From positions 1 through 64,000 of the forward strand of contig PAZC01000060.1 in NCBI GenBank assembly GCA_002716045.1: a stretch of 64,000 nucleotides of DNA. The letters are read 5' to 3'. This DNA is from Opitutia bacterium. GTDB lineage: Bacteria; Verrucomicrobiota; Verrucomicrobiia; Opitutales; Seribacteraceae. The notes under the pieces were generated by a model that saw only the letters and a program-made list of their open reading frames with translations, was not told the DNA's origin and ran no database searches. The first letter of the stretch is position 1; every line of letters begins with the position of its first letter. The position numbers and the translations under genes are program-made. This document shows positions 6,946 to 14,543 of the stretch, piece by piece.

Positions 6946-7266
6946 TCAGGATTCTCTATCGGATGCTTTCGGTGATTGCTGCTTCTTATCCTTCAGGTTG
7001 CGCATGAGTTGCTGAGCCGACGATGCCAAGGCAGTCTTTGGCAAACTAGGCATTGCAGTTTGGCCAGTCGTGGCAGGTGCTGCCATGGAAACAGCCTCCT
7101 TGTTGAAAGCGTGCATTTCGTCTATGATCTCCTTGCGCAAAATGGAAATTTCGCGAGGAGCGGAAATACCGATCTTAACGGAATCTCCCTCGATCTTGGT
7201 GACCGAGATCTCAATGTCACTGCCGATGGTGATCGACTGATTTTTCTTTCGGGATAAAATCAGCAT
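6946..7266 (-). CDS. csrA: Carbon storage regulator CsrA with extended C-terminus
   Basis: [47 protein letters not shown] core; about 45-residue tail. Confidence 0.93.
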
Positions 7267-7754
7267 GCGGTCGATTCCGATTCCGTCGTTTCATCCGGAG
7301 CCCCCACGTTAATCACATGGCGGGCGGAATACTGCTCGTGGTTGTTGATGATGCATTGCTTGCCCTCACGAGTGTTCCTGTTGATCACGATAGGACCGAC
7401 CAAATTGACGGAGATTGTCCCGGGTTGCTCGGGGTTGAGCGTGACGATGTTTAGTATCATCGTGTCATCGGCACCGGTAATACCTAGCGACTCGACGTCG
7501 GCGTCAGAAATCTCAACCAAGTAATTTGGCACTATCCCCGTAGGTTCGATCACGACAAAGGCCAGGCCTTCTTTATTGCTTTCTCGAAGCCACATGAACG
7601 GCAGTTCTTCCTGCGCGAATACTATCTCCATAGAACGAGCGTCCGGAAAACCAAAAAGCCCGGAATTCAAGATAACCTCATTCTGAATCTCTGGAGACGT
7701 GTCCTCTGGATTCAGGGACTCCGGAAAAGAGTCCTGATGTGTATCGACTTTCAC
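7260..7754 (-). CDS. fliW: Flagellar assembly factor FliW
   Basis: [15 protein letters not shown]...[29 protein letters not shown]; overlaps csrA. Confidence 0.9.
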
Positions 7755-7802: not shown

Positions 7803-10595
7803 TTAAAGGAAGTTGAGGAGCGATGTGTTCATCATGTGGGCACCAACTTGTATGGCGGCTTGATAAGCAGTGGTTGCCCGTGTCATTCGAACGATGGCCT
7901 CGGAAAGGTCGACGTCGATGTCCTTGGCAATCCGCTGATCCAAGCCCATGAAGTATTCCTCGTCATGCTTTTGGACAGTTTCCATTCGAGCCATTTTTGC
8001 CGCTACTTCCCCCATTTTATCGACAACCTTGTCTTCCAGAGCAATCAGCTTCTGATTCGCAGCTTCTACTTCCGTCGCATAAGTGGAGGGCTTTGCATTC
8101 CTGAGAGCGTCTCGCAAGCTAATCATGGAGTCAACCACGTCACCCAAGTCCTTTGTGCCACCATTACTGGCTTCCAGATAATAAGATATCTTACTTCCCT
8201 TACCTATGTAAGTCTCGGCATTTTTTTCGTTGCCGTTGTAGGTGACGTCTATGACCTCACCTTTGGAATTTCTATGCGAGAGGAAGGTCTCGGAACCCGT
8301 GGCAAAAGAAAAGGTGTCTTGCAGTCTTGGTGAAGTCGGAAGGTTCATGTCGGCTGCCTCGGCAGGCATTTTGAAACCGAAAACTTTGCCATTGTCACCT
8401 ATCACGTCGACTGTGATCTCTACGCCTTCAGAGGTGCGAACCACAGCGCTCTGCGGCATTTCGTCCTCATAGGTGTAGCTGCCGGCCTTCGTTAAGCGCA
8501 AGCCCACCAGGCGACCACTGGCGTCAACGACAGCTTCGGCCTCGGCTCCTTCTCCTCCTCGAGTGGGCGGGGCAATGATCACCTCGGGCCAATCCGAGCG
8601 ATCCGCCCGGAATTTAGCGACGTGTCCGAAAGATTCACCAATCGGCAACCATGCGTCGTTTTGAACAAGATCTCCATTGGAGTTGTGGATGTATTCATCA
8701 TCCGGGTAGACCAGATAATTATCCACCAAGTCAAGGGGATCAAAAGCCAAATTCTTGAAGTTGTCCTGTAAGCATTGCCAGTAGCGATTCTTGTGGTAAA
8801 CAATGTCACCAGTGTTGTAAGTGCGCCCCTGATTCCAGTCTAAGCCCTGAGGGCTCTCGTAAATCGAGACCTCTTCAAGCTTGGAGGCATTTGTGGGATT
8901 GCTGGGATCAAAGGCGGCAACATCGCCATCCGTGGTGAAGTCCGAAAGAACGAAATAAAATTTATTTGCTGAAAGATCGTGGAGATATTCTCCCTTTATC
9001 AGGCTTTGGTTTTTGGTGGAATCAAGAACCGTATTAAAGCCCGATCTGGGCAAAACTTTCCCCAAGTTCAAGAAATCTGCAGTTGATTCAGCGGGGCTTG
9101 AGGGCAATCCAGATAGATCAGCTTCTTTAGGTACTGATTGGAGAGCTTTGTAGTATTGGCCATCATATACAAATATGTCATTCTGCTGATACGCACTGTT
9201 GGTCAATCCTCCAGTCCCTGGCTCTCTAAGTAGATTGCCAGTTATTTTGCTACCTCCCACATTTTCACCATTGGCCGAAGCGGTCAAAGTGTACTCCAAT
9301 GTACGGGGATCGAAACTAACGCGGGCGGCAGCGCTTTCAGAGCCAATCGCTTCAAACTGAGCCACACTCATCGTAACTTGACTTATTCCGGTATACATCG
9401 AGTCCAGCGTAGCTTGTGGTGTTTCGACGTCGGCGCTTTGATTAAGAACGGAGATGACATGATTTTGGGCATCCGTCAGGTCTTCGAAAAGCCAACCATC
9501 TGGCGTGAGATTGTAGGCCTTATACTCATGCGACGAAACATTCAGGTTCCAATCTTCTCGCAGAACGTCGTAGGTCGAATCGACCTCTTTCCACGCTTTT
9601 GCTAGATTAGTATCAGGGAAGCGGTTGAAGTTCTCGTCTGTCTGAGACTCCCAGATCTTGTCGTTGTAATAGACGAGTTCGCCTCTGTTGTATGAAGTGA
9701 GGCGTTGCCAGTCGGCTGGATGCGTGAGCGCGATATTGGTAGCTTCAGAAACTTTACTCGATGTTACTGAGAGGCTTCTGGTCCAACGACTCCCCTGTCG
9801 TCTCGTATCATTCGGGAATTCATATTCAGGGTCAGCGTCCGTTTCATATTCTGCGGTAAATTCGAAGTCTTCGTCAACTGCGCCATAAAGAAGAAGGTTA
9901 TTCTGGACATCCAATTTGGCCTGAATGCCAGTCTTGCGATTATCAGCATTTATTTTGTCTCGCAAAAATGCCGCAACAGCAGAAGCACTTTGAGCTACAT
10001 CACCAGTTTTATCATTAATGACAGTAGCAGTATCGATGACGTAAGGTCCCTGCCCCGCGACTTGAAAAGTAAATTTGTCGCCTACTTTAAGATTTTCGGG
10101 AATATAATTATCTGCCAACGACAATTTCTTTTCAAACCTTTGTCCTTGAATTACGTCTGTTGATCCAAACTTAGGAGTAGTGTATGTACCTCCAAACAGG
10201 GCTTTCTTTCGGTGTGTGGCATTAATCCGATTGAGGGCTTCCTCCAAGAGTTGGTTCATCTCCTGGGCATTTGTTTCCATCGCGACGTAGTTCAATCCAG
10301 AGCCTGAAGTACGGGCAAGCTCTTGAGATCGGACACCCAGCTCTCGGAGTTTATCGAGATTAAGGTGTGAGGCGTTTAGATATTCCGTGGCGTATGAAGC
10401 ATTGCGCTGATACTGGACGAGGCTATTTTTTTCCGTCTCCATTCGAACGAGACGCCCCATCTTCATCCCATCGTCCTCGGGCAAAGTAATCGATTGCCCG
10501 TCTGAAATTTGCTTCTGGAGATTTAGCTGGCGCTGATCCAGCTTCTTGATCACGTCGAGAAGATTCTCGGAAGTCGTGACATTTGGTACTCTCAT
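7803..10595 (-). CDS. flgL: Flagellar hook-associated protein 3 (FlgL), giant form of 930 aa
   Basis: FlgL-like N-terminus (MRVPNVTTSENLLDVIKKLDQRQLNLQKQISDGQ...LFGG) and C-terminus (DLSEAIVRMTRATTAYQAAIQVGAHMMNTSLLNFL) around a very long central insert. Confidence 0.88.
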   Translation of the reverse strand: MRVPNVTTSENLLDVIKKLDQRQLNLQKQISDGQSITLPEDDGMKMGRLVRMETEKNSLVQYQRNASYATEYLNASHLNLDKLRELGVRSQELARTSGSGLNYVAMETNAQEMNQLLEEALNRINATHRKKALFGGTYTTPKFGSTDVIQGQRFEKKLSLADNYIPENLKVGDKFTFQVAGQGPYVIDTATVINDKTGDVAQSASAVAAFLRDKINADNRKTGIQAKLDVQNNLLLYGAVDEDFEFTAEYETDADPEYEFPNDTRRQGSRWTRSLSVTSSKVSEATNIALTHPADWQRLTSYNRGELVYYNDKIWESQTDENFNRFPDTNLAKAWKEVDSTYDVLREDWNLNVSSHEYKAYNLTPDGWLFEDLTDAQNHVISVLNQSADVETPQATLDSMYTGISQVTMSVAQFEAIGSESAAARVSFDPRTLEYTLTASANGENVGGSKITGNLLREPGTGGLTNSAYQQNDIFVYDGQYYKALQSVPKEADLSGLPSSPAESTADFLNLGKVLPRSGFNTVLDSTKNQSLIKGEYLHDLSANKFYFVLSDFTTDGDVAAFDPSNPTNASKLEEVSIYESPQGLDWNQGRTYNTGDIVYHKNRYWQCLQDNFKNLAFDPLDLVDNYLVYPDDEYIHNSNGDLVQNDAWLPIGESFGHVAKFRADRSDWPEVIIAPPTRGGEGAEAEAVVDASGRLVGLRLTKAGSYTYEDEMPQSAVVRTSEGVEITVDVIGDNGKVFGFKMPAEAADMNLPTSPRLQDTFSFATGSETFLSHRNSKGEVIDVTYNGNEKNAETYIGKGSKISYYLEASNGGTKDLGDVVDSMISLRDALRNAKPSTYATEVEAANQKLIALEDKVVDKMGEVAAKMARMETVQKHDEEYFMGLDQRIAKDIDVDLSEAIVRMTRATTAYQAAIQVGAHMMNTSLLNFL

Positions 10596-10621: not shown

Positions 10622-13600
10622 TTAACGAATCAAGCCCATGACGACTAACTCAAGCATGCTGTCCAATGTAGTCACAACCCTTGCCGAAGCCTGAAAAGCT
10701 TTTTGGTAGCGCATCAAGTTGGCCACTTCTTCATCTATGGAGACGGCGCTGATTGCCTGACGCTCATCTATCAGCAAACCTTCCACCATTTGTTGATGCT
10801 CCAAGTTGTCCACTACATCGCCCAAGGTGTTGCCGACATCCGTGACGAGCACAGAGAGTTGTTCGGTGAAATCCCCGTTGCCCAACTCGGCAATGCCGAG
10901 GGCAACGTCGTTGGCTTCAGGTTCGGATGAATTGCTGGCAACAAGATTATCTAGCGTAAAGCCATTATCGAGATTCAATGCCTTGGCCAAATTTCGATCA
11001 TCTTTGATTAAGGTATCAAATGTGAAATTGTCGCCAAAGATAAAGGTATTAGTACCTTGCTCCATGCGAAAGGGGATCTCGTCATAAGCAAGGATGTGGC
11101 TTCGTCCGTCATCTTTGGTGTTCGCCAAGCCATCTGCCCCGACATAATCCATGTCATTCTCGATGGTGACGTTTTTCATCCGTCGAGCCCCAACGTAAAT
11201 CTTGCTGAAGCTTGGATCTTCAACCAATAATTCACGATCCGTGTTTCGATCCTCAGGAAAAAATGCAGAGGCATTGACGATGGTGAATGTGTCTGTCTCG
11301 GAATATGGAATCGTTATGTCGACCTCATCTCGATATAGATTAAGGTTTCCATCGCCCTGTTGATCAGGATACAACTCGTTCTTTCCTTGAGTTGCGCGAG
11401 ATAGCATGCCGGGAAATCCGAATACATACTTGCCCGGTTCGTCTTCCGGATTGTAGATTTGATTGACCTTGGCCACGACGTCGCCGACCAAAGTGTTCAG
11501 CTTCTTCCTGAAGCTCTCCATCTCAACGTGGCGAGCTTGCTGATAACCATGAATTGAGCCCGAGGTGACGTCCAAAGCGACGTCATCGATGAAAATGCTG
11601 TCTACAAGCGAATAACCGGAGCCCGCATTGGTGATCTTGAATCCAACAATTTGACCTTCCTTCACTATGGCTTCTGCAGTTGCGACTGGGCTACTGGCGG
11701 TACTGCCGGAACCAGTGGCGTCACTTGGATAGACGTAACTGAGGTTGACTGCAGTGAATTTGTCGGCGTCAAATGCCTGACCAGTGCGAGAAGCGATAGT
11801 GCCATCCGCTAGCTTGAAAGCATTGACCTCTGCTAAGTTAGCGGAAGTATTTGGGGCGAATCCTCCCGAAGTGGTATTTCCTGAAGTGCTGAAATCAGCG
11901 AGAGCTTGGTAGTAACGATTGTTTTCTCCATCGAAAAGATAGTCGCCCTTGACGAAAGACTGATCCTGTGTGCGTGAAAGAATCTGCTCTTGGCCGAGAA
12001 TAGGCAGGTCCGCTCCCAGTGTGAGAAAAGCCGTGCCGCCAGCAGTGAGATCCTTTTCTCCGGCAGTGGCAGCAAGATTATCTAGGCTGGCTCCTTTGGC
12101 CAAGTCTAGAGTGGCTTGATAATAGATGCCATTGTAGGAAACAACATCCCCTGCTTGGTATGCTTGGGTTGCCACAGCTCCAGCTGCATTTGGATCAACG
12201 CCTGTTTCCGTGACAACTGGTCCGATGGAACCAATGGCTTGATAATACTTTCCGCCGTTTTCGACGAGATCGCCTACCTTGTATCCAGTGGTCCGAGTTT
12301 TGGCCAAGTCATAGCTGGCTACGCTCATCGCATCAGGTATGGCTGTTAGCTTAAGAAATTTCGTGGTGTCTGAAAGCTGTGCGCCAGTTTGAGCAGTCGC
12401 ATCCGCTTCCGTAACATCCCAGGGCAAAGTATCAACCAGGGCTTGATAATAGTTTTCTCCATCAACAACAACGTCACCAGCCTTGTAAGGTCTCAGCGTG
12501 ATATCTGCCGGGAAACCGTTTACTACGACATCAGTGGTGGAATCAGTCAGTCCATCGGTTGTTCGAGTATATTTGGTTGAGGAAGTTGTTAGGTTCTCGA
12601 CAAGACCAGAGGCAACAAATGCAGCTATCTTTTCTGCTACGGTTGCGGCGGCAGCGGCAGTAGTGGTTGCTGTAGTAGCGGTAGCGGAAGGATGCGTGAA
12701 GGTAAAATTAATTGCAGCGGCGGTGTCATCGTAACCACTTCCGCCATCGAGTATCTCCACTCCGGCCAACTTGCCTTCGGAGTCGATGACAGCTCGTATC
12801 TTGGCGGCAGTGGCACCATCCGCTGCCGGGGTGTTCATTGTGTAATTGAGCTTATCGTCAGCGGATAAGGTTTTGGCTCCGGTGGAATCAAGTAAAACAA
12901 TGGCAGCGCCATCCTTGCCCTTGACCGAAAGATTGATTAAGCCAGTCCCTTCTCCCGTGGCTGCGTCAACGTCGTCGGTTGCGGTGTAGTCTAAAATCTT
13001 GGAAAGATCCTCTAGAGCTTTTTGTCGAAGATCTCTCAGGTCTGTTGCCCGCCCCTTGCCCTGTAGTTCGAAACGACGAATATCCCGATTCAGGAGATGG
13101 ATTTTGGCCAACAAATCATTGGCTGTCTTGACTTCATTTGCAACCGTCTCGGTGAGGTCGTCCTCAAGCCCCTCGAAGCTCTCGCCCATTTCATTGATTC
13201 GGGCAACTAAAGCCTTGGCCTTGTGCATTAACTCCTGACGAACCGATTCCTCAGTTGGAGCAGCAGATAATTCCTGATAAGCATTGAAGAAGTCATTCAG
13301 GGCGCGGGTCAAGCTTCCGGGAGCAAGATCCGACTCATGCATGTCGTCAAGTCCGGCGTTAAGCGACTGGCGGTTTACTTTTTCACCTAAAATCAGTTGA
13401 AGCAAATCGAGGATTTCCTTACGAGCTTCCAGCGACCCGCCTCCGCCGACTTCTGCAATGACTCGTCGATCCAGTAAATCGCTCCTGAAGTGGTCGAGTC
13501 CATCCGCGCGCAAGCCACCAGTGGAAAGCGAGAAATCGTCAGCATACATGTAGGCTTCTTTGGCAAGAACCCTTTGGCGAGCGTAATTGGGATCATTTAC

Positions 13601-13705: not shown

Positions 13706-14236
13706 TTAGGCAGATTCACTTAGGGAGGATCCTCGAACATCTGCAGCGACGGACACTCCGCCAACACGATCGTATGTTTTCGTGCGCATTTGTGGATTCA
13801 AGGAGGTGAGTAAATCATCAGTAACTTCAGTCAACCGAGAGAGTAGGCGACGGTTCTGGTCGAGCTTACGGCGAACATTGCCAATCAATGCATTGATCTC
13901 CTCCACGATGCTTTCGAACATCGGGCGTGTCACCGCTGGAAACAAGGGTAACAAATCGGACAAGCTTGCCTCTTGATCCTGTCCATGGTTTGTGGCCAGT
14001 TGAGAAACAAAGCCCTGACGCTTGGACAAAAGAAGTTGATTGGCTTCCATTTGATCGCGAACCGATTGATTGACATGCATCAGCGCATCCGGGTCTCGCG
14101 ACAATATACGGTCCTGCTGATCGTTCAGCAGACCGACAAGACCGCCATATTCCTGCAGTTCAGTCCGCAGAAGTTTGAGCAATTCCTCCCATTGAAAGGG
14201 AGCGAAATTTTCAGTAGGTGGATTTATTGTTACCAT
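13706..14236 (-). CDS. flgN: FlgN-like flagellar chaperone
   Basis: Alpha-helical protein between flgK and flgJ; start chosen at MVTINPPTENF. Confidence 0.65.
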   Translation of the reverse strand: MVTINPPTENFAPFQWEELLKLLRTELQEYGGLVGLLNDQQDRILSRDPDALMHVNQSVRDQMEANQLLLSKRQGFVSQLATNHGQDQEASLSDLLPLFPAVTRPMFESIVEEINALIGNVRRKLDQNRRLLSRLTEVTDDLLTSLNPQMRTKTYDRVGGVSVAADVRGSSLSESA

Positions 14237-14543
14237 TTTCGGAAATTTGCATGATTTGTTGCTGAAGAACGTCCGAGAGACCGAATCCGCCACCACGAGC
14301 AACCCCTTCTGCAATGGCGTCGGTGAAGAAATAACGGTACATGTCGTGAGCTCCACCAGTTTCTTCCAGAAACCCTCCGCCAAAAACTGGCTTTAGGGCG
14401 TCCTTGAGGTACTGCCTGAGTAGTAGTGATTCGAATTGCGTGCTCACTTCCTTGGTCGCAGCTTCGGCGGCATGCCTGGACAAGGCTAATTCCTTGAGTT
14501 GGCGGGCATCTCCCCCTAGGGAAGCTATGGCTGATGTATCCAT
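14211..14543 (-). CDS. flgJ: Rod-binding (FlgJ N-terminal-like) protein
   Basis: QFESLLLRQYLKDALKP...GGAHDMYRYFFTDAIAEGVARGGGFGLSDVL; start chosen at MDTSAIASL, 2 nt from the flgI stop. Confidence 0.85.
   Translation of the reverse strand: MDTSAIASLGGDARQLKELALSRHAAEAATKEVSTQFESLLLRQYLKDALKPVFGGGFLEETGGAHDMYRYFFTDAIAEGVARGGGFGLSDVLQQQIMQISENGNNKSTY

Follow-up and report, generated by a model that had tools for sequence, protein, structure and literature searches.

CBM5/12-like modules in the giant hook-associated proteins of a family of uncultured Opitutales

In solved flagellar junctions, 11 FlgK and 11 FlgL subunits form rings from which the D2 domains point outward (PMC12221982, PMC6155364), and binding to glycans or mucin is known for flagellar tips and flagellins elsewhere (PMC4009794, PMC8286568). 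Among carbohydrate-binding modules of families 5 and 12 (CBM5/12), the core of ChiA1 comprises W656, Y662, V668, Y670, Y675, C677, L695, and W696, with W687 as the ligand residue (PMC3701571), and a Tyr-Trp pair, Tyr282-Trp283, makes the ligand contact in CBM5 (PMC8449059). Large FlgLs, decorated flagellins, and glycan-binding FliD are already known, each separately; in the literature, subscription papers aside, no paper was found linking CBM_5_12 with hook-associated proteins (HAPs), and what is new here is that, across a family, all three HAPs employ a single CBM-like fold. The outer domains of the proteins at the junction and cap are commonly regarded as structural filler that varies, and a lineage of uncultured marine bacteria in which all of them share one glycan-module fold would offer a direct way to test whether the flagellum serves to recognize surfaces. 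The phylum concerned includes known polysaccharide specialists (PMC8857213). The window analyzed here is the whole stretch of 64,000 nucleotides at positions 1 to 64,000 of contig PAZC01000060.1 (Opitutia bacterium, GCA_002716045.1).

The giant FlgL and its CBM5/12-like units

In the window, flgK lies directly upstream of flgL and is read in the same direction (Table 1), and this gene order, the D0/D1 terminal helices, and the junction fold all support the identity of the protein as FlgL. The AlphaFold model (28 sequences; mean pLDDT 77.9, mostly 85-93 over three CBM5/12-like units) has helices at residues 7-31, 39-97, and 103-124 in the N-terminal D0/D1 segment, for which the mean top-residue fraction in the family FlgL alignment is 0.76, and at residues 816-833, 839-894, and 898-929 in the C-terminal segment. 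The Pfam model Flagellin_N scores 34 bits, above its cut-off, and the NCBIfam model TIGR02550 (FlgL) scores 115.9 bits in two stretches, below its cut-off of 127.2, because the large insert splits the match; the NCBIfam large-FlgL models PRK14692 and PRK08412 match weakly. The assembly ends are normal, and FlgLs from outside the family align to both ends only, which is the basis for the bounds of the insert. The ORF, the model helices, and the family alignment agree with an earlier note that had described a giant 930-aa FlgL with normal ends and central repeats at 8461-9720 (FlgL residues about 292-712), and the three motifs quoted there are all present (LTSYNRGELVYYNDKIWESQ, residues 299-318; SAYQQNDIFVYDGQYYKALQ, residues 467-486; RTYNTGDIVYHKNRYWQCLQ, residues 591-610).

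Table 1. Positions of the flagellar genes, segments, and modules in the window
Feature	Residues	Position	Strand	Basis or remark
flgL, giant hook-associated protein 3	1-930	7803..10595	minus	ORF with ATG start, 930 aa
FlgL N-terminal D0/D1 segment	1-142	10170..10595	minus	model helices, family conservation
FlgL insert (expanded outer domain)	143-800 (~650 residues)	8196..10169	minus	
FlgL CBM5/12-like unit A, complete, W296...W335	293-340	9576..9719	minus	alignment, PDB profile matches, core conservation
FlgL CBM5/12-like unit B, weakest of three	461-515	9051..9215	minus	in block homologous to FlgK 504-630
FlgL CBM5/12-like unit C, W587...W649 and extended loop	583-653	8637..8849	minus	Pfam, PDB profile matches
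FlgL second conserved beta region with VDASGRLVGLRLTKAGSY repeat	677-742	8370..8567	minus	kin to FlgK GSGY repeats
FlgL C-terminal D1/D0 segment	801-930	7806..8195	minus	ends ...NTSLLNFL
flgK, hook-associated protein 1 with homologous insert	1022 aa	10622..13690	minus	TIGR02492, FlgK_D1, CBM_5_12
FlgK CBM5/12-like unit, YKAGDVVVDGENYYQAL	395-448	12347..12508	minus	motif, alignment
FlgK CBM5/12-like unit, YKVGDLVENGGKYYQAIG	463-497	12200..12304	minus	module profile, 22.4 bits
FlgK CBM5/12-like unit, YQAGDVVSYNGIYYQAT...	504-563	12002..12181	minus	homologous to FlgL unit B
ORF directly upstream of flgK, putative FlgN-like export chaperone		13706..14383	minus	position, helical character
fliW-like ORF directly downstream of flgL		7260..7754	minus	then csrA (6946-7266); both named by sequence character and gene order rather than by profile

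Pfam CBM_5_12 matches FlgL at 38.6 bits (E 1.1e-9; curated cut-off 26.2), with an alignment covering model positions 2-26 of 44 and the best stretch at residues 587-611 in unit C, and the same model matches 20 of the 21 family FlgLs. A single-sequence PDB search with FlgL gave weak matches only, and family profiles were required: the unit A profile finds Anabaena All3316 (7b5h; its best sequence-profile match, E 4.6e-4), CBM5 (2rts), the Vibrio chitin-oligosaccharide deacetylase (COD), and ChiA1, and the unit C profile finds Vibrio COD (E 9e-6) and ChiA1 (1ed7, E 2.8e-4), with PfChiA 2rts also reached (E 0.002). The alignments of both profiles to solved CBM5/12 proteins end after the first hairpin, and the profile matches span mainly the first 20-30 of the 44 CBM_5_12 positions. 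Unit B scores 12.4 bits against the unit C profile and is poorly conserved in the family. Conservation is 0.62 in units A and C vs 0.42-0.49 in the adjoining insert segments, and the second beta region likewise has a top-residue fraction of 0.62, with 9 invariant columns. A module profile built for this analysis, of which only the controls are independent since some of the scored proteins are its seeds, found no unit of at least 8 bits in shuffled copies or in ordinary FlgL and FlgK controls.

A CBM5/12 fold is predicted for the modules. In Foldseek searches against the PDB, the FlgL model matched the Campylobacter (C. jejuni) and Salmonella junction proteins as well as Vibrio COD (probability 0.99-1.00, E ~5e-3 to 1.5e-2), the last over ~113 columns. 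As regards the small three-stranded ski-boot fold of CBM5/12, the model thus offers predicted strands and this multi-column COD match rather than a single-domain superposition. Among viral models, the matches were phage ChiC_BD, chitin-binding type-3, and CBM family 5/12 proteins (E 4e-7 to 1.4e-4). The FlgK model is poorer (pLDDT 69, about 55-75 in the insert) and matched FlgK structures and COD. Profile search and model together reveal more than ordinary FlgL D2/D3 folds, with the CBM similarity proposed in the earlier note present in both. When FlgL insert residues 267-761 were searched by tblastn in 50,697 phage records, nothing matched, which lends no support to a recent phage origin of the insert.

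Core residues and the ligand face

Aligned through 1ed7, the ChiA1 core residues W656, Y662, V668, Y675, C677, and W696 correspond to W296, Y302, V308, W315, S317, and W335 in unit A and to W587, Y593, V599, W606, C608, and W649 in unit C, and both units end with an invariant Trp where one is expected. The position of ChiA1 Trp687, an approximate assignment anchored on the following Pro, with the profile alignments stopping short of it, is occupied in unit A by His in 18 and by Arg in 3 of the 21 family FlgLs; similarly, both positions of the CBM5 Tyr-Trp pair are non-aromatic in unit A of all 21. Unit A carries the loop signature N-x-N-H/R-x-P, in which N322, N324, and P327 are invariant across these FlgLs and residue 325 is His or Arg, and the signature occupies what in CBM12 is the ligand-binding loop. 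In unit C, a D-x-F-x-N loop is conserved. Judged by sequence conservation, the face is constrained, yet it is not the face that contacts chitin, and the label "chitin-binding type 3" is not to be taken as a function because the chitin-binding residues are absent from unit A. The CBM5/12 resemblance claimed earlier holds for profile, fold, and conservation but does not extend to the chitin-contacting aromatics, which unit A lacks; the modules are an example of a CBM fold that retains its core but has exchanged the known binding face for another.

The same residues bear on whether these are genuine chitin-binding CBM5/12 modules used for docking on chitinous particles. The nearest solved relatives are chitin-active enzymes and the genome contains a GH18-family gene, but this is the single GH18 match in the genome, and with the equivalents of Trp687 and the Tyr-Trp pair missing from unit A, docking on chitin is improbable.

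Modules in FlgK, FliD, and flagellin and their distribution

The insert noted earlier in FlgL is there but is not confined to that protein, as FlgK, FliD, and one flagellin also carry modules. FlgK scores 176.1 bits with TIGR02492 (NCBIfam; cut-off 170.75), and in Pfam it lies above the cut-off for FlgK_D1 and reaches 27.4 bits vs 26.2 for CBM_5_12, with the best stretch at residues 507-526. FlgL residues 462-584 are homologous to FlgK residues 504-630 (blastp, 36% over 131 residues, E 4e-17), and in 15 of 19 relatives the FlgK modules match at E values above 0.01.

This homology also fits a structural collar, in which the beta modules would make the junction and cap thicker and hold them locked through FlgK-FlgL and FlgL-FlgL contacts, with no ligand involved. 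In other bacteria, FlgL D2 and FlgK D2 share a fold and quasi-homotypic D2 contacts have been proposed (PMC6155364), the C. jejuni FlgL D2 is bulky without a known glycan function (PMC12221982), and in the present family, FlgL and FlgK lengths are correlated (Spearman 0.58, p 0.011, 18 genomes, uncorrected for relatedness) and the ligand aromatics are absent. However, FlgK-FlgL similarity within genomes is not generally above the between-genome level, which gives no indication of co-tuned FlgK-FlgL pairing; the number of modules varies widely (FlgL 930-1502 aa); and most flagellins of the same genomes are about 300-400 aa, with HAP size not simply tracking the bulk filament. The collar is the main rival and remains strong because the proposed FlgK-FlgL D2 contacts and the missing known ligand residues fit it, and it is a serious possibility, although short of an even chance. 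Two further ideas were set aside: modules merely matching a bulky filament are an idea weakened by the ordinary size of most flagellins in these genomes, and within-genome homogenization of FlgK and FlgL modules is unsupported beyond the window's own genus.

The organism's own FliD (1231 aa), encoded on another contig, has one whole CBM-like unit at about residues 569-616 by the module profile, and Pfam CBM_5_12 stays below threshold in this FliD and in the flagellin encoded beside fliD. In three relatives, FliD exceeds the CBM_5_12 cut-off (43.1, 26.7, and 28.5 bits), and the FliD of one relative gives a full-length match (positions 1-44); the case for FliD rests on these relatives and on the module profile, among whose seeds the organism's own FliD was included. 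The flagellin beside fliD, 668 aa here and 797-1007 aa in relatives, has two motif-level units in this organism and reaches 21.1 and 16.1 bits with CBM_5_12 in two relatives, below the cut-off. Sequence comparison documents the homology of the modules, their presence in four proteins, and their conservation at the family level.

The complete FlgLs of the window's family, from 4 genera, are all giant (930-1502 aa) with one 519-aa exception in G023, which is identical or near-identical to the FlgL of another family, f11 (G051); the G023 contig looks misbinned because of this near-identity. FlgLs in other families of the order are mostly 271-342 aa (outliers 481 and 519), and those in a phylum sample are mostly about 297-438 aa; a small number of frames are longer, and none matches in the module region. 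Giant FlgLs thus characterize one family, whose junction and cap proteins reach two to three times the normal size through the modules they carry. The f11 FlgL (513 aa; L117:5806-7347 and, in the f11/G023 pair, L116:1439-2980) has GSGY repeats and one CBM5/12-like unit at 18.2 bits, below the cut-off, and in view of this unit the module trait may be older than the family split. Similarly, FliD is mostly 759-2087 aa in the family vs 565-689 aa in most of the order's remaining families (outliers 813 and 975). Relatives that carry a name are MAGs and single cells of uncultured Opitutales/Opitutia, and several isolate names suggest a marine origin. The wide length variation of FlgL, FlgK, and FliD would suit an anti-phage or anti-grazer shield, in which fast-changing surface modules mask conserved flagellar faces, but units A and C show conservation where hypervariability would be needed, and such a shield is very improbable.

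Other unusual proteins occur in these genomes. A single genome, G031 (C142, C268), holds two distinct giant FlgLs along with four FliD matches, which would reflect either two flagellar systems or a mixed bin, and FliD frames of 1923-2087 aa (G011:C248, G022:C142, G031:C159) are among the largest cap-protein frames seen here. Flagellins in family genomes are mostly about 300-400 aa, and larger ones include a 460-aa flagellin with a C-type lectin-like variable region (L112:3406-4788 = G000:C11:15405-16784; C-type lectin 22.2 bits, just under the 22.6 cut-off, with EPN and WND motifs present), retained over almost its whole length in about 18 family genomes; a 2065-aa flagellin (L111:4291-10488, G000:C15) with intact Flagellin_N and Flagellin_C around repeats and a PQQ/BamB-like beta-propeller (PF13360, 83.8 bits); and a 2307-aa flagellin frame in G018. 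A 4125-aa protein (L118:6218-18595, G000:C43) combines C-type lectin, LamG, a reprolysin-like peptidase, and surface Ig-like and GSGY repeats, with a CBM5/12 match below threshold. The highest-scoring CBM5/12 matches in the family come from a recurrent ORF of 230-246 aa (G006:C59, G020:C84, G037:C34, and others), at up to 40.5 bits.

The glycan reading and comparison with described systems

The glycan-binding role proposed in the earlier note gains partial support. On the favored reading, the chances seem about even that the outer (D2) domains of FlgK, FlgL, FliD, and the flagellin beside fliD have been rebuilt with CBM5/12-fold beta modules that bind glycans weakly and multivalently. By analogy with the 11-subunit rings and outward D2 domains of solved junctions, the junction of each flagellum would display about 33 modules of FlgL and 33 of FlgK, the cap would add others, and all these would act as a multivalent decoration of individually weak glycan-binding units, adhesive or surface-sensing. 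The putative ligand would not be canonical chitin, and specificity would be set by the conserved polar loops. The conserved lectin-like flagellin in the same genomes gives circumstantial support to glycan binding; against it, structural proteins of phages and injection systems likewise contain CBM5/12-type modules, whose binding there is only putative, and the junction lies near the cell body, not an obvious adhesin site. The broader proposal is held more tentatively, namely that throughout the family the junction and cap form a glycan-recognizing organ, in which homologous CBM5/12-fold modules in all three HAPs and a dedicated flagellin, together with the lectin-bearing flagellin, might let the swimming flagellum recognize or grip polysaccharide particles.

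Several described systems share part of this arrangement. Campylobacter FlgL/FlgK (9gsx) and other large FlgLs (PRK14692, PRK08412; 749-827 aa) likewise have an enlarged outward D2 and an 11-mer ring, and no CBM5/12-type modules were found reported in them. The alginate-binding flagellin of Sphingomonas A1 and the FliD mucin adhesins are precedents for an axial flagellar protein that binds glycan, with no CBM module found described (PMC8286568, PMC4009794). Modules of phage virions and of the Anabaena injection system (7b5h, All3316) are alike in profile and structure but belong to a different machine. The CBM5/CBM12 domains themselves (PF02839; ChiA1 1ed7, PfChiA 2rts, SgChiC 2d49, Vibrio COD 4ny2) share with the FlgL modules the Y-x-x-G-D/Q-x-V hairpin, the core aromatics, and the terminal Trp, the likeness in fold being a predicted one; their chitin-contacting aromatics give way in unit A to the polar loop, and whereas they are parts of enzymes, the modules described here lie inside flagellar axial proteins.
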